This document shows, piece after piece, positions 2,681-19,886 of a stretch of 30,439 nt of DNA (its first letter is position 1; each line of letters starts with the position of its first letter). The stretch is from NCBI GenBank assembly GCA_028866785.1, contig JAGWHN010000012.1, positions 1 through 30,439 on the forward strand, given 5' to 3'. The DNA comes from Microcaldota archaeon (GTDB lineage: Archaea > Micrarchaeota > Micrarchaeia > Micrarchaeales > CABMGC01). The notes beneath the pieces were generated by a model, which had not been told where the DNA came from, ran no database searches, and was given only the letters and a program-made list of their open reading frames with translations. The position numbers were made by a program, and so were the translations under genes.

Positions 2681-2703
2681 GATCTGTATGCTCAGCGAAT
2701 TTC

Positions 2704-2710
2704 TATAAAT
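2704..2710 (+). promoter_or_regulatory. TATA-like box upstream of the cation/proton antiporter
   Basis: The sequence tataaat predicts transcription start near 2732 and a leader of about 45 nt before the ATG at 2778. It lies in the divergent intergenic region shared with the minus-strand anchored protein. Confidence 0.4.
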
Positions 2711-2777
2711 CTAATTCTCCTGCAATAAAGCTAAATTCCTTGAGCGAGAAGAGCTTGCGTGCGTTTGTTGTGGTTGT

Positions 2778-4004: not shown

Positions 4005-4005
4005 G

Positions 4006-5124
4006 TCATTTGTTTCGCCTGGTCGTTGCGAGCACATGCACCCTTCCGCCTTTGTCGGATGGCGAGTAGTAGTCCGAATGGCTGTATTTGTCGAAATCCT
4101 TTTTCGATAAGGCATTTAGCTTCTCTATGAGAAGCTGCGGGCTAGTCGCAACCTGCGGAGCCTTTTCCTTGTACTTCTCAATTATCATCGCAGCAAAGAA
4201 AACCCCTATCCCTTCGGATGTGAGCCAGTATGGATAGCTGCTGAAGTTTACGTAGTCGCTCAAGGACCTAGAAAGGCTCTCCTCCTCCTCATAGCCTGCC
4301 ATTGCCTCCCTATGTATCTTCGCCTCGTTTAGCAGCAAATTAGCAAGGAACGGGAGCCTTGAATCGTAGAGCTTGCATATCTCGTACTGCGAAGACATGT
4401 AATCTTCCGGCCCGTTTCCCTCAAGCAGCTCCTTTAGGCTCTTTTTTAACGTGAACGAGGCGACAACCTTCTCTGCGGCAAAGCTAATCCCCTTTGCTAT
4501 GTTCTCAAAAGTCCTCCCCTTTGTGTCACTATCCCTTATTTCCTCCCGCTTTGACTTGCTGATCTTGGACTCAATTGCCAGTTTGAGGTTCCTTTTTATT
4601 TCGCTGTAAGGAAGCTTTTGCCCTACTATGTACTCAGGCAACGTTGTCTCTAGCACCTCCCTAATTCGCATCTCGAGGAACCTTCTTTCCTGTTGCCTTG
4701 TGACTCCGTTCGCCTTCGCAAAATCGCCCTCCTTGTAGAAGACAAGGTCCTGGTTTATCCTATTTAAGTCGACAACTATTGTTTTCTTTTCGTAGTCGTA
4801 AAAGCCAGGCTCTCTTCCGACATAAAACAGCCTGCCGTCGCTCTCTCCCCCAACGTAGTAGTAAGGCAAGACCCCTTTGTGTCCAAATGGGAAGTGCGTC
4901 CTGAGGGCATGGTCGTACACATAATCCCGTATGTCCAGCTCCCTTTCATTGACCAGCACCTTTGGCGCCCTGAACTCCACGCCCAGCCTCTTTAGGTTCT
5001 CCGTCATCTCAGGGAAAAACTTTTCATAAGCAGACAAAACCTGCGCCTCGCCCTTTGTCTGCTTCCTTGGAGCTTCCTGAACCTCAACCTGCTGCCTGAT
5101 TTTTTGTATTTTTATCCTCTCCAT
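4006..5124 (-). CDS. Unrecognised 372-residue soluble protein
   Basis: I cannot assign a family. The product is soluble, with no membrane segment or signal peptide. The N-terminal 30 residues are charged and Gln/Lys-rich. A middle region contains ELDIRDYVYDHA near residue 63 and a Tyr/Gly-rich stretch (PYYYVGGESDGRLFYVG). A central block (about 150-220) is strongly charged and likely helical, and the C-terminal part contains several Tyr/Ser-rich motifs (SSYPYW, YSHSDYYSPSD). No metalloprotease, nuclease or ATPase motif is visible. The ATG at 5124 is preceded by a purine-rich ggggagag and, further up, a TATA-like box near 5157-5166, so it is expressed from its own promoter, divergent from the ThyX-like gene. 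Its integrity over more than 1.1 kb supports a real gene. Confidence 0.65.
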   Translation of the reverse strand: MERIKIQKIRQQVEVQEAPRKQTKGEAQVLSAYEKFFPEMTENLKRLGVEFRAPKVLVNERELDIRDYVYDHALRTHFPFGHKGVLPYYYVGGESDGRLFYVGREPGFYDYEKKTIVVDLNRINQDLVFYKEGDFAKANGVTRQQERRFLEMRIREVLETTLPEYIVGQKLPYSEIKRNLKLAIESKISKSKREEIRDSDTKGRTFENIAKGISFAAEKVVASFTLKKSLKELLEGNGPEDYMSSQYEICKLYDSRLPFLANLLLNEAKIHREAMAGYEEEESLSRSLSDYVNFSSYPYWLTSEGIGVFFAAMIIEKYKEKAPQVATSPQLLIEKLNALSKKDFDKYSHSDYYSPSDKGGRVHVLATTRRNK

Positions 5125-5156
5125 CTCTCTCCCCGTATCAAGCTCCCTTCGGATTC

Positions 5157-5166
5157 CTTATAAGCC
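5157..5166 (-). promoter_or_regulatory. TATA-like box of the 372-residue gene
   Basis: On the minus strand the region reads cttataagg, about 35 nt upstream of the ATG at 5124, giving a predicted leader of roughly ten bases containing ggggagag. Confidence 0.4.
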
Positions 5167-5207
5167 TAATCTCCAAATTCGTCACTTTTTGCATGCGATG
5201 CGGATAG

Positions 5208-5213
5208 TTTAAA
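5208..5213 (+). promoter_or_regulatory. TATA-like box of the ThyX-like gene
   Basis: The sequence tttaaa predicts transcription start near 5236. That leaves room for the ggggga ribosome-binding site just upstream of the ATG at 5254, and excludes the earlier TTG at 5218. Confidence 0.4.
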
Positions 5214-5253
5214 GGTTTTGAGTGGCAAATGTGTATGCTTGTGTTGGGGGACT

Positions 5254-6969
5254 ATGGCTGCAGACTATTTGCTTTCGTTTAATGAGAATGAGAAGGGCGA
5301 GATGGTAGAGCAATTCAGCGACGAGGAGTGCTCGCTTCTTGGCGATAATGTAACTAATTTTGACAGCAACATCTTTGCCTGGAGGATCTCAAACGAGTTC
5401 ACCCCAGAGCAAGCCGGCGCGCTTCTTTCAAGGTACAGCAGGACAGCGCTAACTAGCAGGAGACTCTACCTAAAGGAGTTCTATCCAAACAAAAGCAGGG
5501 GAAGGGAGTTCTTTGATGCATGGCTTGTTGACTATGGAGACGATTCAATTCAGGAGATGGTCGGGGGCCTTCCCGCATCATGCGAGTATGTTTCAAACCT
5601 TGCGGTAAAGGAGATTGAGGACTGCAGGCTAGGCTCCTACATAGAAAAATCAACAAGGTACGTCGCATTTGACAAAAAACTTCCAAATGGCGAGTTCATG
5701 TTCTACAAGGATCCCGAGATCCTTGCCTCAAAATATGCCGACAGGTATCTTGGATTGATGAATGGGCTCTTCAACTCCTACTCCGGCCATATGGAGAAGA
5801 TGATGAAGTACATCAGCGACACCAACAAAATTGAGGAAATTGGATTTAGGATTGGAAGCAAGGTTGTAAAGATAACCGAGTTCACAAAGGTGCTTGAGGA
5901 AGAGTCTGGGATAACCGAGCAGGACCTTAGAAACTCCTACAACAACGCAATCAAGGCAAACGCGCTTGACTTCCTAAGAGACTATCTTCCAATGTCAACG
6001 CTCACGCATGTTGGATGCAGCATGGACGCAAGGTCGTATGAGAACATGCTAAACAAGATGATGGCATCGCCCCTTAGCGAGTCAAGGTGGATTGCAACTA
6101 GGTTATCAGGAGAATTGAAGAAGGTTGTTCCATCGCTTGTCAAAAGAGTTCATGATCACAACGGGGAGGCACTCCAATCGCTCTACAAAGAGAGGGGCCA
6201 AAATGCGTACCATCTAGTCTCAGAGCTATCAAAGGGACTTGTCTCAAATGAGGAGAGCGTCTCGTTACTTGAATACACTGGGGAAAATGCAAAGAATTCA
6301 GAAGTGGCGCTGCAGATCAAGCTTGCATCTGTGATAATTTACAAATTTGCGCGCGGAACAAGCATGAAGCAGGCAATTGAGAAGGCAACCTCAATGAGCG
6401 AGATTGACAGGAAGGCTCTGATCAGCGCTTATGTTGGAAAGAGGACAAACAGAAGGCACAAGCCGGGAAGGGCTTTTGAGAATATCGATTATACCTTTGA
6501 CCTCAACGGCCGAATTGGGATCTACAGGGACATCCAAAGGCACAGGATTGGAACACAGGAGAGGCAGAACTTCGGAGTCGAGCTTGGCTATGACATAAGG
6601 CAGGCCTACAAGGACGTGGGAATCGATGAGGATTACAAGAGCAAGATGGCAGAGGTCATAGAGCTCTACAATGCCCTGCTTCCAACGCACCCATACCAAG
6701 CGCAGTACTGCGTCACGTTCGGCTTTAACATCAGGTGGTACTACAAGCTCAACGCAAGGCAGCTCTACCACCTCTGCGAGCTAAGGTCCACGCACCAGGG
6801 CCATCCAGACTACCGCAAGCTCGTCCAGGACATGGCGATGAAGGTGAAGGCGGTGCACCCTACGATAATCGAGCATATGAACTACCTTGATATGAGCGAG
6901 AAGACGCTCGGCAGGCTCGACTCAGAGATCAGGATGGCGGTCAAGAAAAGCCAGCTCAGCAAGGGCTAG
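5254..6969 (+). CDS. Two-domain ThyX-family (FAD-dependent thymidylate synthase-like) protein
   Basis: ThyX makes dTMP from dUMP using methylenetetrahydrofolate and FAD; typical subunits are about 210-250 residues. This 571-residue protein appears to hold two copies. Domain 1 (about 40-140) has YGDDSIQEM (94-102), matching the YGHxS region, then a degenerate ThyX motif DCR..S..E.S.RY at 123-136 in which Ser128, Glu131, Ser133, Arg135 and Tyr136 survive but Arg-His became Asp-Cys. Domain 2 keeps the opposite half: RHR at 429-431 but not the following Ser and Arg. The two could form a composite site, or the protein may have a different role. Start chosen: ATG at 5254 with ggggga upstream, rather than TTG at 5218. 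Its 3' end overlaps the convergent PH-like gene by 48 nt. Confidence 0.75.
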   Translation: MAADYLLSFNENEKGEMVEQFSDEECSLLGDNVTNFDSNIFAWRISNEFTPEQAGALLSRYSRTALTSRRLYLKEFYPNKSRGREFFDAWLVDYGDDSIQEMVGGLPASCEYVSNLAVKEIEDCRLGSYIEKSTRYVAFDKKLPNGEFMFYKDPEILASKYADRYLGLMNGLFNSYSGHMEKMMKYISDTNKIEEIGFRIGSKVVKITEFTKVLEEESGITEQDLRNSYNNAIKANALDFLRDYLPMSTLTHVGCSMDARSYENMLNKMMASPLSESRWIATRLSGELKKVVPSLVKRVHDHNGEALQSLYKERGQNAYHLVSELSKGLVSNEESVSLLEYTGENAKNSEVALQIKLASVIIYKFARGTSMKQAIEKATSMSEIDRKALISAYVGKRTNRRHKPGRAFENIDYTFDLNGRIGIYRDIQRHRIGTQERQNFGVELGYDIRQAYKDVGIDEDYKSKMAEVIELYNALLPTHPYQAQYCVTFGFNIRWYYKLNARQLYHLCELRSTHQGHPDYRKLVQDMAMKVKAVHPTIIEHMNYLDMSEKTLGRLDSEIRMAVKKSQLSKG

Positions 6970-7431
6970 GATCGCTCTCCTCCCCTCAAATTCCGTCTCT
7001 ACTGGCGCAGTTTCGGGAAAGGAATCCCTGTCCCTCTCATGGACTTTTTCTATCACGTTGTTTAGGTAGCTTGAGAGCTTCTCCTCCTCGCTCTTGTATA
7101 TTCCTGGTATGAGCCCGTTGTTCTTGTCCGGCTTTTCGTGCGGGTGCGTCTGCAGCCCGTTTGTCTTTATGCAGATTGTCGAGGTGAGGATTCCCCTTAT
7201 CACCCTCATCCCGATTATCTGGTTGTAGTGTATTATCTCGTAGTCGTGCCTTATCCCAAAGAGCATCTTGCTGACAACTATCAGCCTCATATTGGTCGCG
7301 ATCAGCACGATAGGGGAGCTCCATGAGCCCCCAAGCGGCCAAAGGCCGCACTGCCTTATGCACAAGTCGACCTTCTCTTTAGGCCAGAGCAGCTCTTTGA
7401 CCAACTCCATAGCTTCATCTTTACTCCCCAC
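6922..7431 (-). CDS. Small PH-like domain protein
   Basis: A soluble 169-residue protein. Residues about 15-95 follow the pattern of bacterial/archaeal PH-like (bPH, YokE-type) domains: an initial helix ending in WPKEKV, then beta strands including VLIATNMRLIVVSK, a Tyr-rich HYNQIIGM strand and an ICIKTNG strand. The last ~60 residues are charged and helical, possibly a coiled tail. Bacterial PH-like domains mostly mediate protein or lipid contacts; no catalytic role is evident. The start is uncertain: GTG at 7431 fits a TATA-like box near 7462-7470 with a short leader, while an in-frame ATG at 7410 is also possible. The last ~16 codons lie antisense to the 3' end of the ThyX-like gene. Confidence 0.6.
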   Translation of the reverse strand: MGSKDEAMELVKELLWPKEKVDLCIRQCGLWPLGGSWSSPIVLIATNMRLIVVSKMLFGIRHDYEIIHYNQIIGMRVIRGILTSTICIKTNGLQTHPHEKPDKNNGLIPGIYKSEEEKLSSYLNNVIEKVHERDRDSFPETAPVETEFEGRRAILALAELAFLDRHPDL

Positions 7432-7461
7432 CTTCTCCCCGATATTTATTGGGATTTTGGC

Positions 7462-7503
7462 TATATATATGCATTTTGCATAAAGTATATATACAATATA
7501 TAC
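7462..7503. promoter_or_regulatory. Divergent promoter with palindromes, candidate operator of the AbrB-PhoU regulator
   Basis: The 84-nt gap between the PH-like and AbrB-PhoU genes holds alternating TATA elements for both directions (7462-7470 leftward, 7486-7494 rightward). It also contains two perfect inverted repeats: atgcattttgcat at 7469-7481 and gtatatatac at 7485-7494, followed by a partial repeat to 7503. The rightward TATA lies about 25 nt before the ATG at 7516, so that transcript is probably leaderless. Palindromes overlapping the box are what an autoregulating dimeric AbrB-type protein would bind. Confidence 0.45.
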
Positions 7504-7515
7504 TTATCAATAATC

Positions 7516-8397
7516 ATGGTCGAGAAGAGGCTTTTCAAGTTCGGAAAGGGCAGCTCCGCCCTCATAATCCCCAAGAAATGGGTCGAGCAAAAAGGGCTTG
7601 ATTTCAGCTCTCCAGTGTACCTGCAGGAGAATGATTCAGGCGACCTTACAATCTCTGCAGTTGAAGGCACCAAGATAGAGAGGGAGGAGGACGCAGGAAG
7701 CCTCTCCCACACGCTCCTCTCAAGGGTGATAGGATTCCACTACATCTACGGAACCACGAGGCTGAGGCTATACTCCAAGAAGGGATTCACGCAAAAGCAG
7801 GCAGAGGAGATACAGGAGGAGATAAAGCGCCACTACATCGGCTTTGAGGTAGTGAACCAGAACCAGTTTGAGCTGATGATTGAGGACATAAGCGGCGCAA
7901 GGGAGTTTGCCATCGACCGCACCCTATCGCGCCTAAAGTATCTGATCTTGGAGGAATTTTCAAGCGCGATTTCAGGTGACGATGACTCTCTCAAAAAATC
8001 AGAGGAGCTCGTTGACCGCTTCTACCTCTTCGGGATAAGGCACCTCAACCTCAACAGGCCCGCAAACCATTTTGCGTACCTGAGGATCGTGCAGATGCTC
8101 GAGCTGATCTCCGACATGCTCCTAATGTCCACCAAGGTCAAAAGCCCCGCGTGCCTTGCGCTGCTCAAGGAAATAAAGACGCAGTTCGAGATGTCCATCG
8201 ACGCCCTAAATGGCAAGGAGGAAGTAATCACAAAGTCCCTTAATTTCGGGGAGTCGATAATCCGCAAGATAGATTTGGAAAAGCTGACCGACCACCAAAA
8301 GATGATCTTCAAGGGGCTGACTTGGAGCACGGTGGCAATAGCCGAGGTCGGGATTGTTTGGAGGAAATCCAAAACAGAGGACCTTCTGGGCGAATAG
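7516..8397 (+). CDS. AbrB/SpoVT domain-PhoU-like transcriptional regulator
   Basis: The first ~45 residues are a swapped-hairpin AbrB/SpoVT DNA-binding domain: the signature FGKGSSALIIPKKWVEQKGL is plainly visible at about 8-27. The remaining ~240 residues are helical and match the archaeal PhoU-like partner domain, with repeated bundle helices such as LIRRI-type and ELISDMLLMS segments. Proteins of this architecture are widespread in archaea and are usually annotated as phosphate-uptake regulators, though most are untested. No pst transporter genes lie nearby, so a phosphate role is not supported by context. Two palindromes directly upstream suggest control of its own promoter and possibly of the divergent PH-like gene. 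Confidence 0.85.
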   Translation: MVEKRLFKFGKGSSALIIPKKWVEQKGLDFSSPVYLQENDSGDLTISAVEGTKIEREEDAGSLSHTLLSRVIGFHYIYGTTRLRLYSKKGFTQKQAEEIQEEIKRHYIGFEVVNQNQFELMIEDISGAREFAIDRTLSRLKYLILEEFSSAISGDDDSLKKSEELVDRFYLFGIRHLNLNRPANHFAYLRIVQMLELISDMLLMSTKVKSPACLALLKEIKTQFEMSIDALNGKEEVITKSLNFGESIIRKIDLEKLTDHQKMIFKGLTWSTVAIAEVGIVWRKSKTEDLLGE

Positions 8398-8399
8398 CC

Positions 8400-9749
8400 T
8401 CAGAGTGAAATCTCAGGATAAAGAGGGAACCTGTTGCAAAGTGCAACAACCTTCGCGCCAATTTCCTTTATCGTTGGATTATTCTTTGTCTCCTCCCTGA
8501 ATTTTGCAACTGCATCAGCACGCTTTTCCTTCTCCGCTGGCAGTTCCATTCCCTCAATCAGATTGATTGCATCGAAAATGTACTGCGCAATGAGCTTCAT
8601 CTCCCCTTCCTTCATTCCCCTTGATGTGATGGCAGGCGTCCCGATCCTGATCCCGCTCGGGTAGAAAGGGCTTGCAGGCTCCGCGGGAACCGTGTTCTTG
8701 TTGCATACAATTCCGGCAAGGTCAAGCGCGTCCTGCGCAAACGCCCCCTTTCCCGCGCCGTACTTTTTGGAAAGGTCAATTAGTATCAGATGGTTGTCAG
8801 TCCCCCCTGTGACGAGCGTCAGTCCCATTTTTGCAAGCTCCTTACCTAGCACCTTTGAATTCTTCACGACCTGCCTTGCATACTCTTTGAATTCGGGCTG
8901 CGAAGCCTCAAGCAGCGCAACTGCAAGCGCCGCAGTTGTATTGTCATGCGGCCCACCTTGAAGCCCCGGGAAGACCGTCCTATCAATCATGTTTCCAAGA
9001 TCCGGATTTTTCTTTAATCCCTTCTCCGTTACCATTATCATTGCGCCTCGCGGCCCCCTTAGTGTCTTGTGCGTTGTGGTCGTGACTATATGGACATAGT
9101 TCACCGGGCTTTCATGCGCTCCCCCTGCCACGAGCCCTGCAATATGCGCGATGTCAGAGACAAGGTATGCTCCAACCTCATCTGCAATCTGCGCGAACTC
9201 TGCAAAAGGAAGCGCTCTTGCGTAAGCTGTTGCGCCTATCCAGATAAGCTTTGGCTTGTGCTCTTTTGCAAGCCTTCTAACCTCCTCAATATCAATGTAT
9301 CCGTCCGGCTTTACGTGGTATGCCACGCTGTTGAAGAACTGTCCGGTCACGCTCGCCTTGAATCCGTGCGTAAGATGACCTCCGTCCTGGAGATTTAGTC
9401 CCATAATCGTATCTCCTGGGCTGCAAAGTGTTGCATAAATCGCAAAATTTGCGGGCGAACCTGAATAGGGTTGAACATTTGCATGCGGAACCTTGAAGAG
9501 CGCCTTCGCCCTCTCGATTGCAAGATTCTCAACAACATCTATGAACTGGTTTCCCCCGTAGTATCTTTTTCCCGGATACCCTTCAGAGTACTTGTTTGTA
9601 AGGACCGAGCCGAGTGCGCGTATCACATTAATGCTTGCAAAGTTCTCGGAAGGGATCATCTCAAGGGTGTCTCTCTGCCTCTTTACCTCATTTTCCATCG
9701 CTTTTGCAAGCGCAGGATCTGCTCCCTCCAAGAAACTAAACTCCCCCAT
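8400..9749 (-). CDS. glyA: Serine hydroxymethyltransferase
   Basis: PLP enzyme interconverting serine and glycine and producing 5,10-methylenetetrahydrofolate (or the archaeal pterin equivalent), the one-carbon donor for dTMP synthesis. The 449 residues show IPSENF near 32, NKYSEGYPGKRYYGG near 52-66, the QPYSGSPAN substrate/PLP loop, SDIAHIAG (Asp199, His202) and the PLP lysine in TTTTHKTLRGPRG (Lys228). The length and motifs are of the general bacterial/archaeal type, complete through the C-terminus. ATG at 9749 was chosen because ggggaaag precedes it and a TATA-like box at 9781-9789 predicts transcription start near 9758; an in-frame TTG at 9773 would lie upstream of that. It is divergent from tmk and near a ThyX-like gene, consistent with dTMP metabolism. 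Confidence 0.97.
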   Translation of the reverse strand: MGEFSFLEGADPALAKAMENEVKRQRDTLEMIPSENFASINVIRALGSVLTNKYSEGYPGKRYYGGNQFIDVVENLAIERAKALFKVPHANVQPYSGSPANFAIYATLCSPGDTIMGLNLQDGGHLTHGFKASVTGQFFNSVAYHVKPDGYIDIEEVRRLAKEHKPKLIWIGATAYARALPFAEFAQIADEVGAYLVSDIAHIAGLVAGGAHESPVNYVHIVTTTTHKTLRGPRGAMIMVTEKGLKKNPDLGNMIDRTVFPGLQGGPHDNTTAALAVALLEASQPEFKEYARQVVKNSKVLGKELAKMGLTLVTGGTDNHLILIDLSKKYGAGKGAFAQDALDLAGIVCNKNTVPAEPASPFYPSGIRIGTPAITSRGMKEGEMKLIAQYIFDAINLIEGMELPAEKEKRADAVAKFREETKNNPTIKEIGAKVVALCNRFPLYPEISL

Positions 9750-9780
9750 GCTTTCCCCGACTATCTTGTACAACTCAAAG

Positions 9781-9789
9781 AATAAATTG
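9781..9789 (-). promoter_or_regulatory. TATA-like box of glyA
   Basis: On the minus strand this reads caatttatt, about 35 nt upstream of the ATG at 9749, predicting a leader of about ten bases that contains the ribosome-binding site. Confidence 0.4.
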
Positions 9790-9810
9790 GTTTCTTAAGC
9801 CGGCAAAACC

Positions 9811-9818
9811 TTTATATT
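9811..9818 (+). promoter_or_regulatory. TATA-like box of the tmk-mazG operon
   Basis: The sequence tttatatt lies about 25 nt before the ggggga ribosome-binding site that precedes the TTG start at 9851. Expected transcription start is near 9839. Confidence 0.5.
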
Positions 9819-9850
9819 TTGCAAAATGGATATTAGCTTGGGGGAAGAGT

Positions 9851-10489
9851 TTGTCATCGCAGAAAGTAAAGGCTGGCAAGTTTGTGGTAGTTGAGGGTCT
9901 CGAGGGTTCGGGAAAGAGCACCCAGATAAAGTTGCTTCAGAATTCACTTAGAAAGAAAGGCGAGGGGTGCATTTTCATAAAGGAGCCGGACTACGAAAAC
10001 AGAATCGGAGCCTTCATCAAAAAGGAGCTTACAAATAAAGAGGACCCTCTTGATATAATTGCCCTCCAATTCACATTTGTTGCTGCAAGGTTCGAGCAGT
10101 TTGCAAAAGTAACGGCGCCAGCCCTAAAGGAAGGAAAGAGCGTGATTAGCGATCGAAACTGGTTCTCAACAGCAACGCACGTGGCGGCATTTGCTCCAAA
10201 ACCATATTCTGATCTTACCTGGATTGCAAATGTCCACAGCAAGCTTCCGCTTCCAGATGCTGTTTTTTACATAGGGGTTCCTCCGGAGGTTGCAAGCGAG
10301 AGAATAAACTCAAGGGGCGACCAAAAAAGAAGATTCGACAGCCTCAGCAGCCTAATTGCACTTGAAAATGCATACACCGAGCTCTCAAAGCTCTATCCAC
10401 AGATCTGGCACAGGCTCAACGGCAATCAGAGCACCGAAAAAGTGCACGCAGAGCTCTTAGCAGCATGGGAAGATTTAAAATTAAAATAG
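9851..10489 (+). CDS. tmk: Thymidylate kinase
   Basis: Phosphorylates dTMP to dTDP with ATP in the cytoplasm. The 212-residue protein has a Walker A loop GLEGSGKST (16-24, Lys22), the DRNW motif (Asp101-Arg102) equivalent to the DRY motif of P-loop nucleotide kinases, and an arginine-rich LID region (RINSRGDQKRR) near 152-162. Size is normal for the family. The start is a TTG preceded by ggggga about ten bases upstream; no in-frame ATG lies nearby, and the next in-frame GTGs fall inside the first beta strand. It forms an operon with the MazG-type gene seven bases downstream. A TATA-like box at 9811-9818 supports the promoter. Confidence 0.93.
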   Translation: MSSQKVKAGKFVVVEGLEGSGKSTQIKLLQNSLRKKGEGCIFIKEPDYENRIGAFIKKELTNKEDPLDIIALQFTFVAARFEQFAKVTAPALKEGKSVISDRNWFSTATHVAAFAPKPYSDLTWIANVHSKLPLPDAVFYIGVPPEVASERINSRGDQKRRFDSLSSLIALENAYTELSKLYPQIWHRLNGNQSTEKVHAELLAAWEDLKLK

Positions 10490-11018: not shown

Positions 11019-11627
11019 ATGGACATCGTCTGGATAGTAGGGGGAATAGTAGTACTGCTGATATTGATTGTTATTGCAATCTTCAACGGCTTCATCTCGA
11101 AGAGGAACCGCGTCCAGGACGCATGGGCGCAGATTGACGTCCAGCTAAAGAGGAGATATGACCTCATCCCAAACCTTGTTGCAACCGTAAAGGGCTATAA
11201 GAAGTATGAGGCAAGCGTGCTCACACAGGTCACAAAACTAAGAAGCTCAATAATGTCAGGCTCCGTTGAGGACAAGGCTGCGGCAAACAACAAGCTCAGC
11301 CAGGCGCTAAAGAGCATCTTTGCAGTTGCGGAGAATTATCCGGACCTAAAGGCATCGCAGAACTTCAAGGATCTTCAGGACCAGCTTGAGACAACTGAAG
11401 ACAAAATCTCCTTTGTCAGGACCTCCTACAATGACTATGTGCTTGACTACAACAATGCGCTCCAGCAGTTTCCGGGCAACATCCTTTCGGGAATCTTCAA
11501 CTTCACAAAGGCTGAGTTCTTCCAGACGCCTGATGAGGAAAGGGAGCCGATGAAGGTGGACTTTGACGATGAAGAGCCTGCAAAGCCTTCAAAACCTGCA
11601 AAGTCCTCCAAAAGACAGAAGAAGTAA
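11019..11627 (+). CDS. LemA family membrane protein
   Basis: A 202-residue protein with one N-terminal membrane segment (about 4-24) followed by the LemA domain. Landmarks are RNRVQDAWAQIDVQLKRRYDLIPNLV near 30-54, YKKYEASVL, and the C-terminal FNFTKAEFFQ. LemA proteins are helical-bundle membrane proteins of unclear function that often sit beside HtpX-type proteases, as here, 15 bases away. The last ~35 residues are acidic and then lysine/proline/serine-rich, likely a disordered tail. The gene appears complete and starts at an ATG consistent with the upstream TATA-like box. Confidence 0.93.
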   Translation: MDIVWIVGGIVVLLILIVIAIFNGFISKRNRVQDAWAQIDVQLKRRYDLIPNLVATVKGYKKYEASVLTQVTKLRSSIMSGSVEDKAAANNKLSQALKSIFAVAENYPDLKASQNFKDLQDQLETTEDKISFVRTSYNDYVLDYNNALQQFPGNILSGIFNFTKAEFFQTPDEEREPMKVDFDDEEPAKPSKPAKSSKRQKK

Positions 11628-11642
11628 ATAAAGTGAATCCTC

Positions 11643-12539
11643 ATGGCAAGCTTCTTTGACGAAATAGCTAGGAACAGGCTAAAATCGATAGCGCTAATGA
11701 TGGTATTTTCTGCCTTATTTGTGGCAGTCATTTATCTATTCATAGTGTTTTTGGGCGGAGGAGTCTTCTCATTCACGTTTGCAATCGGCTTGGTTGCAAT
11801 TTATGCATTAATCACCTACTATACGGGAGACAAATTGGTCCTTGCAGTTTCCGGAGCCAGGGAGGCCGACCCAAAGAAGTACAGGCAGCTCTATGGGATA
11901 ATAGAGGGTCTTGCATCCGCGACCCAGATAAAGATACCAAAAGTCTACATAATTGAGGATCCGACCCCGAATGCATTTGCGACTGGAAGGAGCAAGAATC
12001 TCTCCTCCGTGGCAGTCACTACAGGAATCCTATCAATAATGAGCAAGAATGAGCTTACGGGAGTGCTTGCTCACGAGATGTCACACGTTGCGGACAACGA
12101 CGTTCAGTTCATGACCATCGCAATCGTCTTTGCGGGAGCAATTGGCATAATCTCTGCCTTCATGAGAAACATGCTTTTCTTCGGCGGAGCGAATGGCGAG
12201 CGAAACAATGGCGGCGCGCTCTTGCTGATCGCATTAATTCTTGGGCTCTTGGCGCCTTTCTTTGCAATGCTAATTCGGCTTGCAATCTCAAGGAAGAGGG
12301 AGTACATGGCCGATGCAAACGGCGCAAGGCTCACAAGGGATCCACACTCGCTTGCCGAGGCTCTAAAGAAAATAATGACATTCGAGAAAAATCCAAACAC
12401 ACCGCAGATGCAAAATGTCAACGAGATAACCGCGAATCTTTACTTCTCAAACCCTTTCAAGGCGGAGAGCTTCGCTAACCTGTTTTCAACGCACCCTCCT
12501 ATCGAAGAGAGGATAAAGAAACTCGAAGAGATGTATTAG
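11643..12539 (+). CDS. htpX: HtpX-like membrane zinc metalloprotease (M48)
   Basis: A 298-residue integral membrane protease of peptidase family M48. Two N-terminal membrane segments (about 15-35 and 38-58) precede the catalytic domain. The zinc motif is HEMSH (His144, Glu145, His148), with the third ligand Glu220 in REYMADANGARL; two more hydrophobic segments lie between, near 158-173 and 190-212. It likely degrades misfolded membrane proteins, with the active site facing the cytoplasm. It follows lemA in a two-gene operon, a common pairing. Length and motifs are complete. Confidence 0.95.
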   Translation: MASFFDEIARNRLKSIALMMVFSALFVAVIYLFIVFLGGGVFSFTFAIGLVAIYALITYYTGDKLVLAVSGAREADPKKYRQLYGIIEGLASATQIKIPKVYIIEDPTPNAFATGRSKNLSSVAVTTGILSIMSKNELTGVLAHEMSHVADNDVQFMTIAIVFAGAIGIISAFMRNMLFFGGANGERNNGGALLLIALILGLLAPFFAMLIRLAISRKREYMADANGARLTRDPHSLAEALKKIMTFEKNPNTPQMQNVNEITANLYFSNPFKAESFANLFSTHPPIEERIKKLEEMY

Positions 12540-12693: not shown

Positions 12694-14694
12694 ATGGCAA
12701 TCTACCCAACAAATGCAACGGGAGAGATCATCTCCAATCTTCTATTAGTATCGATACTGCTTTTTTCGCTGGGGCTCGCATCCGCAATCCTGCTTTGGAG
12801 GCAGGGCAACTTATGCAAAAAGGCAAGCTTGGGCTTCTCGCTCCTTGCAAGCCTATCACTCTTTGTTGCAGGCATATTTGCGCTTCTTGGCTTGCAGATT
12901 AATCCAGTGATATTTGCCACTGTCTCCCAATTAGGAAGTTTTGGATTCGGCATCGATGCCCTCTCAGGATTTTTTGCAGTGCTGATAGGCTTTGCGGGAA
13001 TATCAATCTCCATATACTCATTTACTTACCTTGAAGAGTACCAAAGAAAGGGTTACAGCATTGCAAAGTTCGCCTTTCTATTCAACCTATTCCTGCTTTC
13101 AATGGCTGCGGTCGTCAGCGCACAAAATGCCTTTGCATTTCTGGTATTTTGGGAGCTTATGGCGCTTTCCTCATACTATCTGGTTTCCTTTGAGCATAAG
13201 GAAGAGGCTTCAAAGAATGCAGGATTTGTCTATTTACTGATGACTCATTTTGGCACTGCCTGCCTGATTGTCATGTACCTTATACTTGCAGGAGGAGCAG
13301 GCGGCTCCTTCGATTTCAGTGCCTTTTCAAACGCTACCTATCTCTCAATTGCCAAGGACGCAATATTTGTACTTGCACTCGTCGGATTTGGCGTGAAGGC
13401 AGGGCTTATGCCTTTCCATATCTGGCTGCCAATTGCGCATCCTAAGGCGCCCAGCAACATTTCCGCGCTGATGTCAGGCATAATGCTCAAGACCGCCATC
13501 TATGGGATGGTTAGAGTCATTTTCGGATTTCTTGCCGTGGGAATCACCTCCCCTCCTATCTGGTGGGGAATCGCACTTCTTGGCCTTGGAATAATTTCTG
13601 CCGTTCTGGGCGCGCTATACTCAATGATGGAACACGATCTCAAAATCCTCCTTGCATATTCCAGCATAGAAAACATAGGGATAATCGCAATAGGTCTTGG
13701 AGCATCCCTCATGTTCCTTGCATCGGGCTTGCAGGCTGTTGCAGCCCTTGCACTCTTCGCTGCGCTTTACCATTCGCTAAATCACTCTCTCTTCAAAAAC
13801 CTCCTTTTTGCTGGAGCGGGGTCTATCATGCGCTCAACCCATAGCGGAGATATTGACAATTTGGGCGGACTGAACAAAAAAATGCCGATGACAGCCTCCC
13901 TCTTCTTTGTAGGAGCAGCCTCGATTGCCGCCATTCCTCCGCTAAACGGATTTGTAAGTGAGTGGCTCACTTTCATCGCACTTTTGGGCGGAATCGGCGC
14001 TTCGGCAACCGTCTCGTTTAGCTCTGCAATGGCTGTGATCTTCCTCGCCCTGACCAGCGGCCTTGCAGTTGCAGTTTTCGTAAAGGCCTTCGGGGTGACA
14101 TTCCTCGGAACCCCGCGAAGTGAAAATGTGGAAAGCGCGCAGGATCCTCCAAAAGGAATGCTTTTCGGGATGGGCCTGCTCGCATCAGCCTGCATTGCTC
14201 TCGGCCTCTTTCCAGGCGTCATTGCGCAGGTTTTTGTCCCTGTGCTCACGCAGCTCAAGTTTTCAGGGGCAACTGAGATAGTCGCCACGGCAAACACGCT
14301 TCCGACACTTTGGATATTTGCTGCCCTGTTTGTCATTATGGCCCTACTCACAATTTTCCTGCGCCTTATCCAAAGAAAGAGGACCGTCAGCGATAGCAGC
14401 TCTATCGCCACCTGGGACTGCGGCGTGCCCTCAATTGACGGAAATATGCAGTACACCGCAAAGGGCTTCTCTATGCCGGTGATTAGGACCTTTGGTTTTG
14501 CCGTTGGGCCCTTGGGCAAGGGAAATGCGTACGGGCATCAGCTGTTTGAGGCCGTAATCTATCATCCTCTCGAGACACTCTTCCTCACCGTTTCGCCATG
14601 GTCCCGGAAGCTGCATACCGGTAAGCTGATGCACTATCTGCTATATCTGCTTGTAACACTGATTGCGGTGATAAGCTTTGCGCTGATTAGATAA
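12694..14694 (+). CDS. hyfB: HyfB-like antiporter-type subunit of a complex I/hydrogenase-related complex
   Basis: A 666-residue, multi-spanning protein close in length to HyfB/HycC (NuoL/M-like, Proton_antipo_M family). Proton-pathway residues of the family are present: Glu154 in FWELMAL, Lys235 in GVKAGLMPFHIWLP, Lys317 in HDLKILLAYSS and Lys464 in VFVKAFG. The C-terminal extension after about residue 530 is typical of HyfB and carries the conserved CG(V)PSIDGNMQYTAKGFSMP stretch. It is the first gene of a five-gene operon, followed ten bases later by the hyfC-hyfE fusion. Expected role: proton or cation translocation through two half-channels in the membrane arm. Nothing in it suggests degeneration, in contrast to the soluble subunits encoded downstream. 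Confidence 0.93.
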   Translation: MAIYPTNATGEIISNLLLVSILLFSLGLASAILLWRQGNLCKKASLGFSLLASLSLFVAGIFALLGLQINPVIFATVSQLGSFGFGIDALSGFFAVLIGFAGISISIYSFTYLEEYQRKGYSIAKFAFLFNLFLLSMAAVVSAQNAFAFLVFWELMALSSYYLVSFEHKEEASKNAGFVYLLMTHFGTACLIVMYLILAGGAGGSFDFSAFSNATYLSIAKDAIFVLALVGFGVKAGLMPFHIWLPIAHPKAPSNISALMSGIMLKTAIYGMVRVIFGFLAVGITSPPIWWGIALLGLGIISAVLGALYSMMEHDLKILLAYSSIENIGIIAIGLGASLMFLASGLQAVAALALFAALYHSLNHSLFKNLLFAGAGSIMRSTHSGDIDNLGGLNKKMPMTASLFFVGAASIAAIPPLNGFVSEWLTFIALLGGIGASATVSFSSAMAVIFLALTSGLAVAVFVKAFGVTFLGTPRSENVESAQDPPKGMLFGMGLLASACIALGLFPGVIAQVFVPVLTQLKFSGATEIVATANTLPTLWIFAALFVIMALLTIFLRLIQRKRTVSDSSSIATWDCGVPSIDGNMQYTAKGFSMPVIRTFGFAVGPLGKGNAYGHQLFEAVIYHPLETLFLTVSPWSRKLHTGKLMHYLLYLLVTLIAVISFALIR

Positions 14695-14704
14695 GGGATT
14701 GAAA

Positions 14705-16315
14705 ATGGATTATGCTACTATAATTAATTCGGTCCTTCAGGCTCTCTTCATCTTCCTGATTGCGCCACTGCTTGTGGGGATCATGCGAAGGGTAAAGGCC
14801 CGTTTCCAGAGCCGCATGGGAGCTCCAATCTATCAGCCATATCTGGACATACTCAAACTCTTCATGAAGGGAACTGTAGTTAGCTCCACGACCTCATGGG
14901 TTTTCATCGCTGCTCCTGTGGCGTTTTTCGCATCTGTTGCGATAGCCGCAATAATCCTTCCAATAATTTTTCCGAATAATCTAATTACTGCGGATCTGGT
15001 GCTATTCGTGTATCTTTTTGCAATAGGCCGCTTTATGACCGCGCTTGCCGCCCTTGACACCGGAAGCGCATTCGGGGGAATAGGCGCCAGCCGTGAGATG
15101 CTCTACTCCATACTACTCGAGCCGCTGCTCTTCGCCGCCATTGTTTTCTTTGCGGCATTCGCGCTGAACAGCAGCATTAGCATGTCCTCAGTTGTCTCAA
15201 CTGCTACAATTAACTGGCCAGGCGTCCTTGTCTCTCCCGCATTTTGGCTTGCGGGAATAGCGCTATTCATAGCCATACTTGCAGAAACTGGAAGGCTTCC
15301 GTTTGACAATCCTGCAACCCATTTGGAGCTTACAATGGTACACGAGGCCATGATTCTTGATTATTCGGGCCCGCTGCTTGCGCTCATAGAGTGGGCAAAC
15401 TCCGCAAAGACCGTGGTCTTCTTTGGACTGTTTGCGGCGCTGTTCCTACCATTCGGCCTTCCCCTATTTTCCTCAAACCCATTTGTTGCCGCAGGCACCT
15501 TCCTGCTGGTCGTCGTGCTGCTTGGAATACTTACCGCTTCGCTCGAGAGCCTCACTCCGAAGTGGCGTCTCTTTGAGATACCAAAGCTCCTCACATTCTC
15601 GCTGACTCTTTCTCTTATAGCATTCTTGGTCAAGATATTCGGCGGCACGCTCACAGGAGGCTTTGAGAGCGTTTTGCCTTTTGTGATGCTTGCCACCTCA
15701 CTATACTTCCTCTTCAGCGCCACCTTCAAGAGAAGGCTTGAGATATACGTCGTACAAAGCGTGGCGCTTGCGCTCATTTTCGGCACAATCGCCCTAAGCG
15801 TCGGAGACACAAGCACATACTGGAGGCTTGGCTCAACGATTCTCTTCAAGGTGATAATACTCCCATTGCTGCTAATAAGGGCCTTCGGAGCGCTGCAGAA
15901 AGATTCGAAGAACATCCTGAATGTGGATCCGATCTTTTTGGGCTCCCCTCTAAGCGTATCCAAAAGCTTAATCCTCTCTGGCTTCCTTATCGTTCTTTCC
16001 TATTCGATTACCGCGGTGCTTGGCGTCCAAAACCCACTGCTTCCAGTAGCCTTCTCCATTATACTAATCGGAGGGCTGATAATCGCCACAAAGACACACG
16101 TCATTCTTCAGGCAATGGGCTTCCTGATACTCGAGAATGGTCTTGTGCTCTTGCCAACCGCGCTTTCGCTTCAGATTCCATTTTTCGGGGAGATAGCAAC
16201 CTTGTTCGATATACTCACCCTAATGGTGGTCGCACTGGTGCTCGCTTTCAAGGTTAACGATGCAATTGGCGGTCTTGACAGCAGGAATCTGGACCAGCTG
16301 CTTGAGGAGCAATGA
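14705..16315 (+). CDS. HyfC-HyfE fusion membrane subunit
   Basis: One 536-residue frame joins two subunits that are separate in Hyf. Residues about 1-310 are HyfC/NuoH-like: an N-terminal VKARFQSRMGAPIYQPYLDI loop, the ALDTGSAFGGIGASREM region, and the acidic loop with AETGRLPFDNPATHLEL and MVHEAMILDYSGP. Residues about 320-536 are HyfE/NuoK-like, recognisable by TKTHVILQAMGFLILENG, whose Glu lies in the NuoK-like proton path. E. coli HyfC plus HyfE total almost the same length, so neither part is truncated. ATG at 14705 follows aaggga at good spacing; an in-frame TTG at 14699 is less likely. HyfD, which separates C and E in hyf operons, is absent, and its loss could have brought the two genes together. 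Confidence 0.88.
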   Translation: MDYATIINSVLQALFIFLIAPLLVGIMRRVKARFQSRMGAPIYQPYLDILKLFMKGTVVSSTTSWVFIAAPVAFFASVAIAAIILPIIFPNNLITADLVLFVYLFAIGRFMTALAALDTGSAFGGIGASREMLYSILLEPLLFAAIVFFAAFALNSSISMSSVVSTATINWPGVLVSPAFWLAGIALFIAILAETGRLPFDNPATHLELTMVHEAMILDYSGPLLALIEWANSAKTVVFFGLFAALFLPFGLPLFSSNPFVAAGTFLLVVVLLGILTASLESLTPKWRLFEIPKLLTFSLTLSLIAFLVKIFGGTLTGGFESVLPFVMLATSLYFLFSATFKRRLEIYVVQSVALALIFGTIALSVGDTSTYWRLGSTILFKVIILPLLLIRAFGALQKDSKNILNVDPIFLGSPLSVSKSLILSGFLIVLSYSITAVLGVQNPLLPVAFSIILIGGLIIATKTHVILQAMGFLILENGLVLLPTALSLQIPFFGEIATLFDILTLMVVALVLAFKVNDAIGGLDSRNLDQLLEEQ

Positions 16316-16324
16316 GATGATTAT

Positions 16325-17791
16325 ATGATTGAACTAACATTATTGATACCTGTAATCTTTGCAGTCGCAATCCTGTTCTTTCGCCGAAACCTAAGGGCGG
16401 TGGAGTCGATTGCAATTCTTGGCGCCCTGCTTTCCCTAGCCTCGCTGCTTCTTTCCGCATTTGCAAGCAACTTCTTTGGCCAGCCCGTTTCCGGATTGTT
16501 TGGCTTCCTATACATTGACTCGCTCGGGTTTCTCTTCACCTTGATTACGGTTACGATTACGCTTTTCGTGATCGTCTACTCTAGGGGATACATAAGGGAG
16601 GAGCTCAAGGAGGGCATCTTTAGCAAGGAGCAGGTTTGGAGCTACTATTCGCTGCTACTTCTTTTCCTCTCATGCATGATACTTGTCACTCTCGCATCTG
16701 ACTTCCTGACCATCTGGATTGGACTTGAGGCCACGACACTCACCTCAGTTTTCCTTATCAGCTTTTACGGCACCAAGGAATCGGTGGAGGCGGCCTGGAA
16801 ATACTTCATCATCTGCTCCCTTGGAATCACAATGGCGCTTGTCGGGCTTATGATTTTGGGATACGGGCTGCAGCAGGCAGGCCTTCCAGTGAACTTTAGC
16901 TTTGGCAATGTGCTTGCAAGCGCGCACCAAATCCCATCAATATACCTAAAGCTCGCATTTGCCTTTATCTTTGTCGGCTACGGCACGAAAATGGGGCTTG
17001 TTCCGCTTCACGAGTGGCTTCCAGATGCGCACAGCCAGGCGCCGACCCCTGTGAGTGCATTGCTATCGGGAGTGCTTCTCAGCACTGCATTTTACGCAAT
17101 CCTTCGATTCTATCCAATTCTCCTGCAAGGTTCAGATACAGGATCCTTCGGATCCCTCCTTTTCCTCACCCTCGGGTCACTTTCATTGATCCTTGCCTCG
17201 CTCAGGCTTTTCTCGCAGACAAACTACAAGCGCCTTCTCGCATATTCAAGCGTTGAGAATATGGGGATAATAGCCCTGGGCGTTGGCGTTGGAGGTCCGC
17301 TTGGACTCTTCGCATCCCTATTCCATGTTGTATCCCACTCGCTGGTCAAGCCTCTTGCATTTTTCCTTGGCGGGGTGCTTACCCAGGTCTACGGCACTAA
17401 GGAGATCTCAAAAATCACGGGAGTTTCGACGGTTATGCCTGCAATCGGCAAGATCTTCGTGCTGGTGAACATCGGGCTAACGGGCGGGATACCATTTGGT
17501 ACCTTCATTTCGGAGATAGTCTTGCTTGCAGCTGCGCTTGCAACCGGAAACTATCTTATAGTCCTTCTGCTGGTCGTTTTCACAACAATAGCTTTCGGAA
17601 CATTCCTCTTAAGGTCTTCAAGAATGGCATTTGGTCCACTTCTCCAAAAGCCTAGAAAATACCGCCCTGACTCCCTGACGCTCGCATGCGTATGGGGCCT
17701 TTTTGCGCTCGCGGTTATTTTAGGTTTGCTTGTGCCTACATTTGTTGCAGGGCTAGTAAATGCGGCGATTGCAGTGCTACTAAAGGTGTAA
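16325..17791 (+). CDS. hyfF: HyfF-like antiporter-type subunit
   Basis: A 488-residue membrane protein of the NuoN/NuoM-like family, matching HyfF in operon position and slightly shorter than the E. coli protein. Ionisable residues of the translocation path are kept: Glu135 in IGLEATTL, Lys222 in GTKMGLVPLHEWLPDAH, Lys302 in NYKRLLAYSS and Lys342 in HSLVKPLAFF. It starts nine bases after the fusion gene and ends three bases before the large-subunit gene. Together with HyfB it gives the complex two antiporter-like modules, compared with three in Hyf and one in Hyc. The function inferred is ion translocation coupled to the adjoining arm. Confidence 0.92.
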   Translation: MIELTLLIPVIFAVAILFFRRNLRAVESIAILGALLSLASLLLSAFASNFFGQPVSGLFGFLYIDSLGFLFTLITVTITLFVIVYSRGYIREELKEGIFSKEQVWSYYSLLLLFLSCMILVTLASDFLTIWIGLEATTLTSVFLISFYGTKESVEAAWKYFIICSLGITMALVGLMILGYGLQQAGLPVNFSFGNVLASAHQIPSIYLKLAFAFIFVGYGTKMGLVPLHEWLPDAHSQAPTPVSALLSGVLLSTAFYAILRFYPILLQGSDTGSFGSLLFLTLGSLSLILASLRLFSQTNYKRLLAYSSVENMGIIALGVGVGGPLGLFASLFHVVSHSLVKPLAFFLGGVLTQVYGTKEISKITGVSTVMPAIGKIFVLVNIGLTGGIPFGTFISEIVLLAAALATGNYLIVLLLVVFTTIAFGTFLLRSSRMAFGPLLQKPRKYRPDSLTLACVWGLFALAVILGLLVPTFVAGLVNAAIAVLLKV

Positions 17792-17794
17792 TCC

Positions 17795-19351
17795 ATGGAT
17801 ACTCAAACTAAAAAATTCATCGCAGAACTCTCTAAGGGCTCTATTGGCGACAAATTAAGCGTGGTTGATACTGAGTCAGCCATCTGGATTGAGACAGCTC
17901 CAAAAAATATGGAGCACCTATGCATATCCTGCATCGGCCTTAGTGGCACATTCGATTCGGGGTTTGCATATCCTCATTCTAAGGCGGGTGAATGGGCGGC
18001 CACATACCTCTTCCGCGTGCCCAAAATCGGCAAGCTAGTTGCCCTCTGGACGCATTCCCGCACGTTTTATTCTATCTCAAACTCAATCCAGGCTGCGCTT
18101 TGGGATGAGCGAAAAATGTGCGAGATGTCCGGAAGGGAATTTGTTGGGCTCCAGGACCAGCGGCCCATAGTGATCCATCCTGAAAGCGCCAAGTTCGGGA
18201 AGGGCAAGATCAGGAAAAGAAAGGCAATAGAGTACCTCTTTTCCGGAACCGGAGCCGAAGAGGAGTTCCAAATACCAGTCGGACCTGTCCATGCGGGAAT
18301 AATCGAGCCAGGCCACTTCAGGTTCCATGTAATTGGTGAAAAGATAAATAAGCTTGAGGTCCGCTTGTCCTACCTGCATAAGGGCATCGAGAGCCTCGCT
18401 CAAAACAGGGATGCTGAGTCACTCTTCCCTTTGATTGAGCAGATTTCCGGTGACGAGTCTGTTGCAAATTCCGTCGCATATGCGCAGGCAATAGAAGTCG
18501 CATCTGGGATAGAAGTGCCCTCAAGGGCAAATTCGCTTAGGCTAATTTTGCTTGAGATGGAAAGGGTCTACAATCACTTAGCTGACCTCGGGGGAATGTC
18601 CATGGATATAGGGTACTATGCCTCATCCTCTCAATTCCTTATACTAAGAGAAGAGTCAATGCGTCTAAATGAGTCCATTTTTGGCAACCGCTTCCTTAGA
18701 GGCATGATCTTGGTAGGCGGGGTCTCAAGAAACATCTCGGTCGAGAAACTACAACAATTGAAATCAGCCCTGGCCATATTCTTAAAATCCTTCTCGGACG
18801 TCGAAGCGCTTACAATGACCTCATCAACATTTTTGGACCGTGTCTTTACCACTGGAAGGGTTTTCCCACAAACCGCAATGGATCTCTCACTTGTTGGGCC
18901 AACAGCGCGAGCTTGTGGGATAAGCTGTGATTTGCGCAAGCATTTTCCTTACAGTGGATACAAGAGCATCCCAGTTGTCGAGTCTCTTGCTGACGACGGA
19001 GATGTGCTTGCACGTTTCCTAGTCAAATTCAAGGAAGTGCTTGAGTCTATAAGACTCATACGTCTAGCTGCAAGCGAAATCTCATCGGGCCCAATCTCTG
19101 CAGATGCCTCCAGAAAGATTGCTAAAGTCAAGTCAGGCGCATTTGGGATCGGAGCATGCGAGGCCTCGCGTGGAGGATGCACATTCCTTGTACAATTCGG
19201 AAAGAAGGGAAGAATTGCAAATCTTTCAATAAGAACGGCCTCATTCCGTAACTGGAGGGCCATCGAGAAGGCAGTAAAGTCAAACATAATTGCAGATTTC
19301 CCACTGATAAATAAAAGCTTCAATCTCTCCTATTCTGGAGCGGATCTGTAA
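17795..19351 (+). CDS. HyfG/HycE-like large subunit lacking all Ni-Fe cysteines
   Basis: A 518-residue NuoC-NuoD-type fusion as in HycE/HyfG. An N-terminal 30-kDa-like domain (1-130) has the ALWDERKMCEMSGREF region, followed by the 49-kDa/hydrogenase-like domain beginning GPVHAGIIEPGHF (163-175), with LSYLHKGIE at 191-199. Catalytic subunits carry two CxxC pairs binding Ni-Fe. Here the first (ERxCGxC) reads EQISGDES, with Ser218 and Glu221 in place of cysteines, and the second (DPCxxC) reads NLSYSG at 510-515, with Ser512 and Gly515. Both were checked at the nucleotide level, and the frame is intact. The protein cannot hold the Ni-Fe centre, so it is a structural or repurposed subunit, comparable to Ehr-type large subunits. 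A ggtg element precedes the ATG. Confidence 0.9.
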   Translation: MDTQTKKFIAELSKGSIGDKLSVVDTESAIWIETAPKNMEHLCISCIGLSGTFDSGFAYPHSKAGEWAATYLFRVPKIGKLVALWTHSRTFYSISNSIQAALWDERKMCEMSGREFVGLQDQRPIVIHPESAKFGKGKIRKRKAIEYLFSGTGAEEEFQIPVGPVHAGIIEPGHFRFHVIGEKINKLEVRLSYLHKGIESLAQNRDAESLFPLIEQISGDESVANSVAYAQAIEVASGIEVPSRANSLRLILLEMERVYNHLADLGGMSMDIGYYASSSQFLILREESMRLNESIFGNRFLRGMILVGGVSRNISVEKLQQLKSALAIFLKSFSDVEALTMTSSTFLDRVFTTGRVFPQTAMDLSLVGPTARACGISCDLRKHFPYSGYKSIPVVESLADDGDVLARFLVKFKEVLESIRLIRLAASEISSGPISADASRKIAKVKSGAFGIGACEASRGGCTFLVQFGKKGRIANLSIRTASFRNWRAIEKAVKSNIIADFPLINKSFNLSYSGADL

Positions 19352-19361
19352 GGTGAAAAAA

Positions 19362-19886
19362 ATGAATGAATTTGATGCATTATTGAAATATCCAAAAACC
19401 GACCGAATCTCAAAAGATTCAAAATCAAAAGTGATTAGAGAAATAGCAGAGCTTCTTGAAAAACGCCCGCTTTCTCCGTTTTCCCGTTCAATCTCAGTGC
19501 GAATGATAGATTGTGGCTCCTCAAACGATGTTGAAATTGAGGAAGGGCTTGCCAATTCTCCTCAGGTTGATTGCGAGCGCTTTGGAATACATTTTGTTGC
19601 ATCCCCACGTCATGCTGATGTCCTCCTTGTAAGCGGTCCCGTTTCAATAAATATGAAGCGCGCTCTGGAAAAGACCTATGCCGCAATGCCTCATCCCAAG
19701 GCCGTTGTTGCTGTAGGAGACGGAGCTGTCACAGACCGCATATTCTCAAAGAGCAATGTCATATACAAGAGCGGCAAAGTGGAAGATGTTGTGCCAGTTA
19801 CGATAAAAGTTCCAGGGAATCCACCAGCTCCCTACGAATTAGTCTTGGGCATACTTAAAGCTGGTATAATTCTATCAAGACAATAA
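19362..19886 (+). CDS. HyfI/NuoB-like small subunit lacking all four Fe-S cysteines
   Basis: A 174-residue homologue of HyfI/HycG/NuoB, recognisable by the fold-specific stretches VDCERFGIHFVASPRHADVLLVSGPVS, HPKAVVAVGDGA and VPGNPPAP. NuoB-type subunits bind a [4Fe-4S] cluster through CxxC, one later Cys before a Gly, and the Cys of PGCPP. Here the positions are Ser54 and Val57 (in CGSSNDVE), Gly121 and Asn153, so all four ligands are gone. Only two cysteines remain (51 and 71), neither at a ligand position. ATG at 19362 is preceded by aaggtga; an in-frame GTG at 19353 overlaps that element and is rejected. This is the last gene of the operon. No ferredoxin-like HyfH or HyfA gene accompanies it. 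Confidence 0.9.
   Translation: MNEFDALLKYPKTDRISKDSKSKVIREIAELLEKRPLSPFSRSISVRMIDCGSSNDVEIEEGLANSPQVDCERFGIHFVASPRHADVLLVSGPVSINMKRALEKTYAAMPHPKAVVAVGDGAVTDRIFSKSNVIYKSGKVEDVVPVTIKVPGNPPAPYELVLGILKAGIILSRQ

Follow-up and report, generated by a model that had tools for sequence, protein, structure and literature searches.

A Micrarchaeota Ehr-type operon with a conserved membrane arm and soluble subunits free of metal ligands: a possible redox-free relative of respiratory complex I

The 30,439-nucleotide stretch of Micrarchaeota DNA analysed here (hereafter, the window) carries five co-oriented genes on its + strand, encoding HyfB, a HyfC-HyfE fusion, HyfF, HyfG and HyfI (positions 12694-19886; Table 1). 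Judged by its subunit set, the motifs of its large subunit and the tree of that subunit, the operon is an Ehr (energy-converting hydrogenase-related) complex and thus of a known kind. The initial annotation had proposed an undescribed system; for the operon as a whole this is not supported, and what is unusual is the ligand-free small subunit and the fusion of HyfC to HyfE. Because the charged residues of the membrane arm are kept and the metal-holding cysteines are gone, the complex likely moves ions without electrons. The best reading, with a probability of roughly 0.45, is that of a cation/proton antiporter resembling Mrp and working without redox chemistry, with the soluble pair as its cap and probable gate.

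Organization of the operon and its membrane arm

The five open reading frames and their domains were recovered by ORF and domain searches as first described. Besides the Pfam matches listed in Table 1, HyfB matched the NCBIfam model for hydrogenase 4 subunit B (1.2e-179, under the model cut-off), the HyfE part of the fusion (residues 326-534) matched that for a hydrogenase-4 membrane subunit (7.2e-16, also below the cut-off), and the fusion matched PDB chain 7z0s_D (5.4e-37); HyfG matched 7z0s_E (2.5e-57) and, weakly, PF00374 and PF00329. The likelier starts are the ATG at 14705 for HyfC-HyfE and that at 19362 for HyfI, whose database copy has 174 residues, and with these starts the intergenic gaps measure 10, 9, 3 and 10 bases. 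Genes for LemA and HtpX lie upstream, and the downstream gene, on the opposite strand, has no Pfam match. A promoter and terminator scan, based on a bacterial consensus, gave results at chance level. Further upstream, at 2778-4004 and some 9 kb from the operon, lies a gene of the sodium/hydrogen exchanger family (PF00999).

Table 1. Genes of the operon and the former metal-binding sites of its soluble subunits (window coordinates)
Feature	Position	Strand	Description
HyfB-like antiporter-type membrane subunit	12694..14694	+	666 aa; PF00361 1.5e-48
HyfC-HyfE fusion	14699..16315	+	PF00146 at residues 15-311; HyfE at about 326-534
HyfF-like antiporter-type membrane subunit	16325..17791	+	488 aa; PF00361 3.1e-51
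HyfG-like large subunit without NiFe ligands	17795..19351	+	518 aa; PF00346 2e-41
HyfG, former first NiFe motif	18446..18457	+	Ser218-Gly-Asp-Glu221; conservation 0.96, 0.97, 1.00, 1.00 (80 rows)
HyfG, former second NiFe motif	19310..19345	+	residues 506-517; N506, K507, S508, N510, Y513, G515, D517 invariant
HyfI-like (NuoB-like) small subunit without N2 cluster ligands	19353..19886	+	PF01058 1e-19
HyfI residues 56-60 (S-S-N-D-V)	19518..19532	+	first two ligand Cys replaced by S57 (P in 53% of rows) and V60
HyfI G124	19722..19724	+	third ligand position, GDC to GDG
HyfI N156	19818..19820	+	fourth ligand position, GCPP to GNPP; Asn in 91% of rows

All five proteins have homologs in the E. coli formate hydrogenlyase/hydrogenase-4, and NuoB, NuoC/D, NuoH and the antiporter-like subunits are held in common with respiratory complex I (Nuo). 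Unlike the E. coli enzymes, however, the operon encodes neither NiFe nor N2 ligands and lacks the ferredoxin-like subunits, so that the HyfH/HyfA expected alongside a group 4 hydrogenase is missing. In contrast to complex I, it has no N2 cysteines and no NADH or other input module; canonical Nuo genes form a separate locus in three of 14 relatives. In agreement with the initial annotation, none of the window's reading frames contains a ferredoxin motif (C..C..C...C), and no gene for HyfH, HyfA or an NADH module is present in the operon or its flanks.

As for the membrane arm, the residues that we take from complex I to form the translocation path were tallied wherever 90% or more of the rows agree. 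HyfB E154, K235, K266 and E423, HyfF E135, K222 and E397, HyfC E133, E141, E196, D203, E210 and E216, and HyfE K384, E479 and D504 are present without exception in the rows that extend over them, as well as in the E. coli proteins. This supports the retention of charged residues described at the outset. HyfB and HyfF belong to the antiporter family (PF00361) that also includes Mrp-type cation/proton antiporters. No small subunits resembling MrpC, E, F or G were seen in the operon, and Mrp is not known to have a soluble pair like HyfG and HyfI.

Loss of metal ligands in the soluble subunits

When HyfG is aligned with subunit 5 of E. coli formate hydrogenlyase, both cysteine pairs are gone: the RxCGxC and DPCxxC motifs of group 4 NiFe hydrogenases are replaced by Q-I-S-G-D-E and N-L-S-Y-S-G, respectively. 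None of the 120 HyfG rows bears the NiFe motifs (two of them, P0136 and P0190, end near the C-terminus). The fold is nonetheless that of a large subunit, as the single-chain AlphaFold2 model (pLDDT 91.8) has 7z0s_E as its best Foldseek match, with a TM score of 0.92 by query length; such models contain no metals, and residues 515-518, at the old site, are of low confidence.

In HyfI, all four N2 cysteines are likewise gone by alignment with MbhJ and HycG, CNGC having become SNDV, GDC GDG and GCPP GNPP. In the 110 nearest HyfI rows (P0005-P0114; P0005 and P0006 are one protein), cysteine is missing from each of the four ligand positions, and two rows are gapped at one of them. A broader set of 264 HyfI-type rows, which stems from searches centred on ligand-free queries and whose counts therefore give no frequency, included 17 rows with all four cysteines and 246 without (one of these with a single Cys), plus a complex I NuoB misaligned by one place. 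The AlphaFold2 model (single chain, pLDDT 91.9) is closest in Foldseek to 6cfw_J, the MbhJ subunit of the Pyrococcus membrane-bound hydrogenase MBH (rmsd 1.5 A over 135 columns), from which HyfI differs in lacking the metal ligands. The view that both soluble subunits are devoid of these ligands is thus confirmed.

The former metal sites are occupied by strongly conserved polar residues. In a set of 80 HyfG rows, H195, E215, D220, E221, D501, N506, K507, S508, N510, Y513, G515 and D517 reach 1.00, and in 123 HyfI rows N58 (1.00), D59 (0.99), E61 and E63 (1.00), D123 (1.00) and N156 (0.91) stand high, some proteins in both sets being identical. Cysteine columns stay below 0.9, with maxima of 0.89 in HyfG and, at a position that is Val in the window, 0.84 in HyfI. 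Taken at the level of sequence, this conservation suggests a reuse of the old metal sites. It suggests it without proving it, because background conservation is high (110 of 518 HyfG positions and 53 of 177 HyfI positions lie at or above 0.97), and the old metal site is therefore no unique stand-out in either protein.

By the same alignments, electron transfer of known type through the complex is excluded, unless another cofactor is present. It could be imagined that clusters are still held, with Asp, Asn, Ser or Glu in place of Cys, as polar residues do occur at or beside the former ligand positions of both proteins. This is very unlikely, since HyfI has S or P at position 57, V at 60 and G at 124, which leaves it short of four ligands, and a second ligand-free clade, described below, has other letters there (D, T/A/P, D and N). 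The complex might also be an oxidoreductase still, either by hydride chemistry in the HyfG pocket or by means of a cofactor that some further partner would contribute. We hold this to be unlikely, although less so than unusual ligands: there are no N2 cysteines to pass electrons and no partner gene in the operon, and the position of the quinone tyrosine of complex I (Y87 of T. thermophilus Nqo4) aligns with HyfG G219, its partner His being kept as H195. In its favor, canonical NuoI/HyfH-like and soluble hydrogenase proteins are encoded in some of the 14 related genomes, and redox coupling of Ehr complexes is supposed in most of the literature covered (PMC6349859, PMC10432482, PMC7894505).

Relation to the Ehr family

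Ehr complexes are defined by the loss of the NiFe ligands in the large subunit, according to passages in PMC6349859, PMC10284858, PMC7304191 and PMC4378227. Together with passages in PMC6728331, PMC10432482 and PMC3569383, these give as standard traits the subunit set, the absence of HyfH/HyfA and the lost NiFe ligands, and six plasmid Ehr operons agree. The function of the family is mostly called unknown in the passages concerned (further ones are found in PMC7894505, PMC8561730 and PMC12892359). The operon shares with Ehr the HyfB-C-E-F-G-I set, that is, two antiporter-like subunits, HyfC, HyfE and a large and a small subunit, without HyfH/HyfA alongside and with a large subunit free of NiFe-binding cysteines. 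In the HyfG tree (63 rows, built by a quick method with SH-aLRT support and no bootstrap), 53 Ehr-type rows fall on one side with a support of 100, forming a single clade; these ligand-free rows, including eight plasmid Ehr, Methanosarcina and Woesearchaeota, are set apart from E. coli and from the NiFe enzymes of Micrarchaeota (100). The Micrarchaeota rows make up one clade (100), beside a wide set at 90. The replacement motifs, SGD and NKSxNxSYxG, are common to most Ehr rows (Allomeiothermus departs from them most clearly), and it is this, along with the grouping in the tree, that identifies HyfG as an Ehr large subunit. Two loci, L051 and L055 (genomes G227 and G108), were left out of this tree; they hold a Micrarchaeota Hyf-like cluster whose large subunit lacks the NiFe cysteines and whose small subunit has all four of its own.

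The operon departs from other Ehr in two respects. Firstly, N2 cysteines in the small subunit, usual in the Ehr operons examined and not stated as defining in the passages cited, are absent from HyfI, whereas seven of eight bacterial plasmid Ehr small subunits keep CNGC/CNAC, GDC/GEC and GCPP (the eight operons were hand-picked from 246-247 records with a match). The eighth, from Allomeiothermus silvanus (pMESIL01, 11254-12126), has lost every N2 cysteine, and its N-terminus is lengthened by a segment that bears CxxCxxC. No mention of ligand loss in an Ehr small subunit was found in the passages of open-licence literature; the main Ehr paper, Marreiros et al. 2013, may already mention it. Secondly, HyfC and HyfE are two genes in all six annotated plasmid Ehr operons. 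On plasmid pHY1 of Methylovirgula sp. HY1 (1-10444), the Ehr operon stands near F0F1 ATP synthase genes.

Whether ligand loss is monophyletic, a check proposed with the initial annotation, has a clear answer inside Micrarchaeota: it is, both for HyfG (100) and for HyfI, where the clade is supported at 99/99 in a first tree (11 of 86 rows left out) and at 100/99 in a tree built without the ligand columns (two more left out). The latter tree also recovers as one clade (100/98) the second ligand-free group, which reads DSGSDN, GDD and GNPP at the corresponding motifs and whose named members are Dehalococcoidales, Dehalococcoidia and Altiarchaeota. This second clade lies closer to cysteine-bearing Ehr (weakly, 66/50), a placement that argues against the N2 ligands having been lost only once. 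One loss shared by all 52 HyfI rows without ligands was rejected (p-AU 0.0075). For Micrarchaeota and the second clade alone it was not (p-AU 0.12), and therefore one or two losses are both possible for this pair. In the wider family, the HyfI tree shows that the ligands were lost more than once. A further loss, if real, would be that of the metagenomic sequence P0115, which groups with cysteine-bearing Rhizobium-type rows and whose longest contig has 619 bases.

Conservation and gene content among Micrarchaeota

The same gene set, which had been suggested as something to look for in related genomes, is present in 14 of 295 sampled Micrarchaeota genomes, with HyfI proteins of 58-83% identity. 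In all 14, HyfG and HyfI are both ligand-free, the order HyfB, HyfCE, HyfF, HyfG, HyfI is preserved (in three, L040-L042, the contig stops within HyfB) and HyfC-HyfE is a single ORF of 534-571 residues. The nearest full relative found, L002, has a HyfG 71% identical and shares flanking genes with the window, so that homology and synteny both place the window in Micrarchaeota. Across 15 loci, no shared flanking gene suggests a partner or points to a substrate. The family that recurs most often beside the operon, in 8 of 15 loci, is of the eRF1 type as judged by two representatives, and next to it in frequency stands one without an assigned identity.

Comparison of the window with L048 gave pN/pS values of 0.18 for HyfB, 0.11 for HyfCE, 0.15 for HyfF, 0.25 for HyfG and 0.13 for HyfI, in a single pair whose synonymous sites are near or at saturation (dS is saturated for HyfI). 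All five genes are thus under purifying selection, which indicates that the operon is not decaying. Together with the order kept in 14 of 14 relatives, this bears out the idea of a compact set maintained as a unit. That the operon is a decaying relic might be argued from the repeated loss of ligands in the wider family. It is hardly credible, as the HyfI and HyfG matches of the 14 genomes have intact frames with no internal stops, which, with purifying selection and conserved order, contradicts it; no sign of decay in close relatives, the other outcome named at the start as adverse, was seen.

The remaining gene content of the 14 genomes, whose completeness is unstated, was surveyed by profile searches. 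With PF00346, the operon's own HyfG was the sole match in 11, a complex I NuoD being additional in G001, G002 and G044; with PF00374, a separate large subunit with intact motifs, of the soluble NiFe hydrogenase type, appeared in three others (G224, G089 and G059). HyfG is therefore the only large subunit found in 8 of 14. The initial annotation had regarded a second cysteine-bearing pair that completes the complex as decisive against it: the outcome was mixed, as complex I or a soluble hydrogenase does exist in these six genomes, but the searches made found no cysteine-bearing group 4 pair completing the complex. HyfH-like proteins were not detected in 10 of 14; they occur on the Nuo-bearing contig in G001, G002 and G044, with a weak match in G086. 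Exactly two PF00361 matches, HyfB and HyfF, were obtained in 10 genomes, three in G097 (where HyfB is cut) and five in each of the three complex I genomes. No COX1 oxidase passed the cut-off in any of the 14 (one weak match in G236). The ATP synthase c subunit was found in 13, all except G002, and its sequences, recovered for 9 of 14 loci, did not discriminate between H+ and Na+ use.

HypD was found in none of the 14 relatives and in one of six comparison genomes, all of which carry NiFe motifs; the lack of a match thus carries little weight, because five of those six are also without a match. The soluble hydrogenase-type large subunits mentioned above (L089, L090 and L091) come from genomes without a HypD match. 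So do the Ech/Mbh-like clusters at L053, L054, L056, L057 and L058 (G185, G147, G032, G144 and G125), in which RTCGIC and DPCISC are intact.

Possible function of the complex

In the antiporter reading, HyfB, HyfF and HyfC-HyfE would form the ion path, and HyfG and HyfI would dock onto HyfC in the manner of formate hydrogenlyase. Where metals were once bound, the invariant polar residues could then make up a pocket or a proton network; responding to pH or to a ligand, it would open the membrane arm or couple to it. The ion gradient that the ATP synthase uses would power the exchange, and the cation/proton exchanger might convert one ion gradient into another. Several observations are consistent with this proposal: the kept membrane arm and soluble-subunit folds, the high conservation of the former metal-site residues, HyfB and HyfF as the only PF00361 proteins found in 10 of 14 genomes, the presence of an ATP synthase, the missing ferredoxin motif in the window, the absence of an oxidase over the cut-off and, in 10 of 14, of HyfH-like proteins, and a ligand-free pair that persists in conserved order in every relative at pN/pS values of 0.11-0.25. 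However, a bare antiporter has no obvious need for two large, highly conserved soluble subunits, three of the genomes also have complex I and three a soluble hydrogenase, and a site without Cys might in principle still accommodate some other cofactor.

The conserved HyfG pocket, moreover, fits catalysis too. Ion flow could be coupled to a non-redox reaction in this pocket, making the complex a gradient-driven enzyme or the reverse, much as coupling of ion flow to non-redox chemistry has been proposed for the DabA-DabB CO2 systems. Two nearly invariant motifs that now fill the old active site, Ser-Gly-Asp-Glu and Asn-Lys-Ser-x-Asn-x-x-Tyr-x-Gly-x-Asp, in Micrarchaeota as in the wider Ehr, argue for this possibility, and the lack of a recurring neighbor that would name a substrate argues against it. 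We consider it rather unlikely, more probable than a remaining oxidoreductase function, and rank it close behind the antiporter reading.

More broadly, we give an even chance to the proposal that a lineage related to complex I gave up electrons altogether and became a metal-free ion machine, its N2 and NiFe sites rebuilt as a proton or ligand network and kept across these Micrarchaeota and, independently or by descent, in the Chloroflexota/Altiarchaeota clade. It has long been asked how electron transfer in complex I is linked to ion pumping far away from it. A natural homolog that keeps the coupling arm but has no path for electrons would reveal what HyfG/NuoD, HyfI/NuoB and the antiporter-like subunits are capable of in the absence of redox chemistry, and the Ehr complexes would gain in it the simplest case for testing their function.
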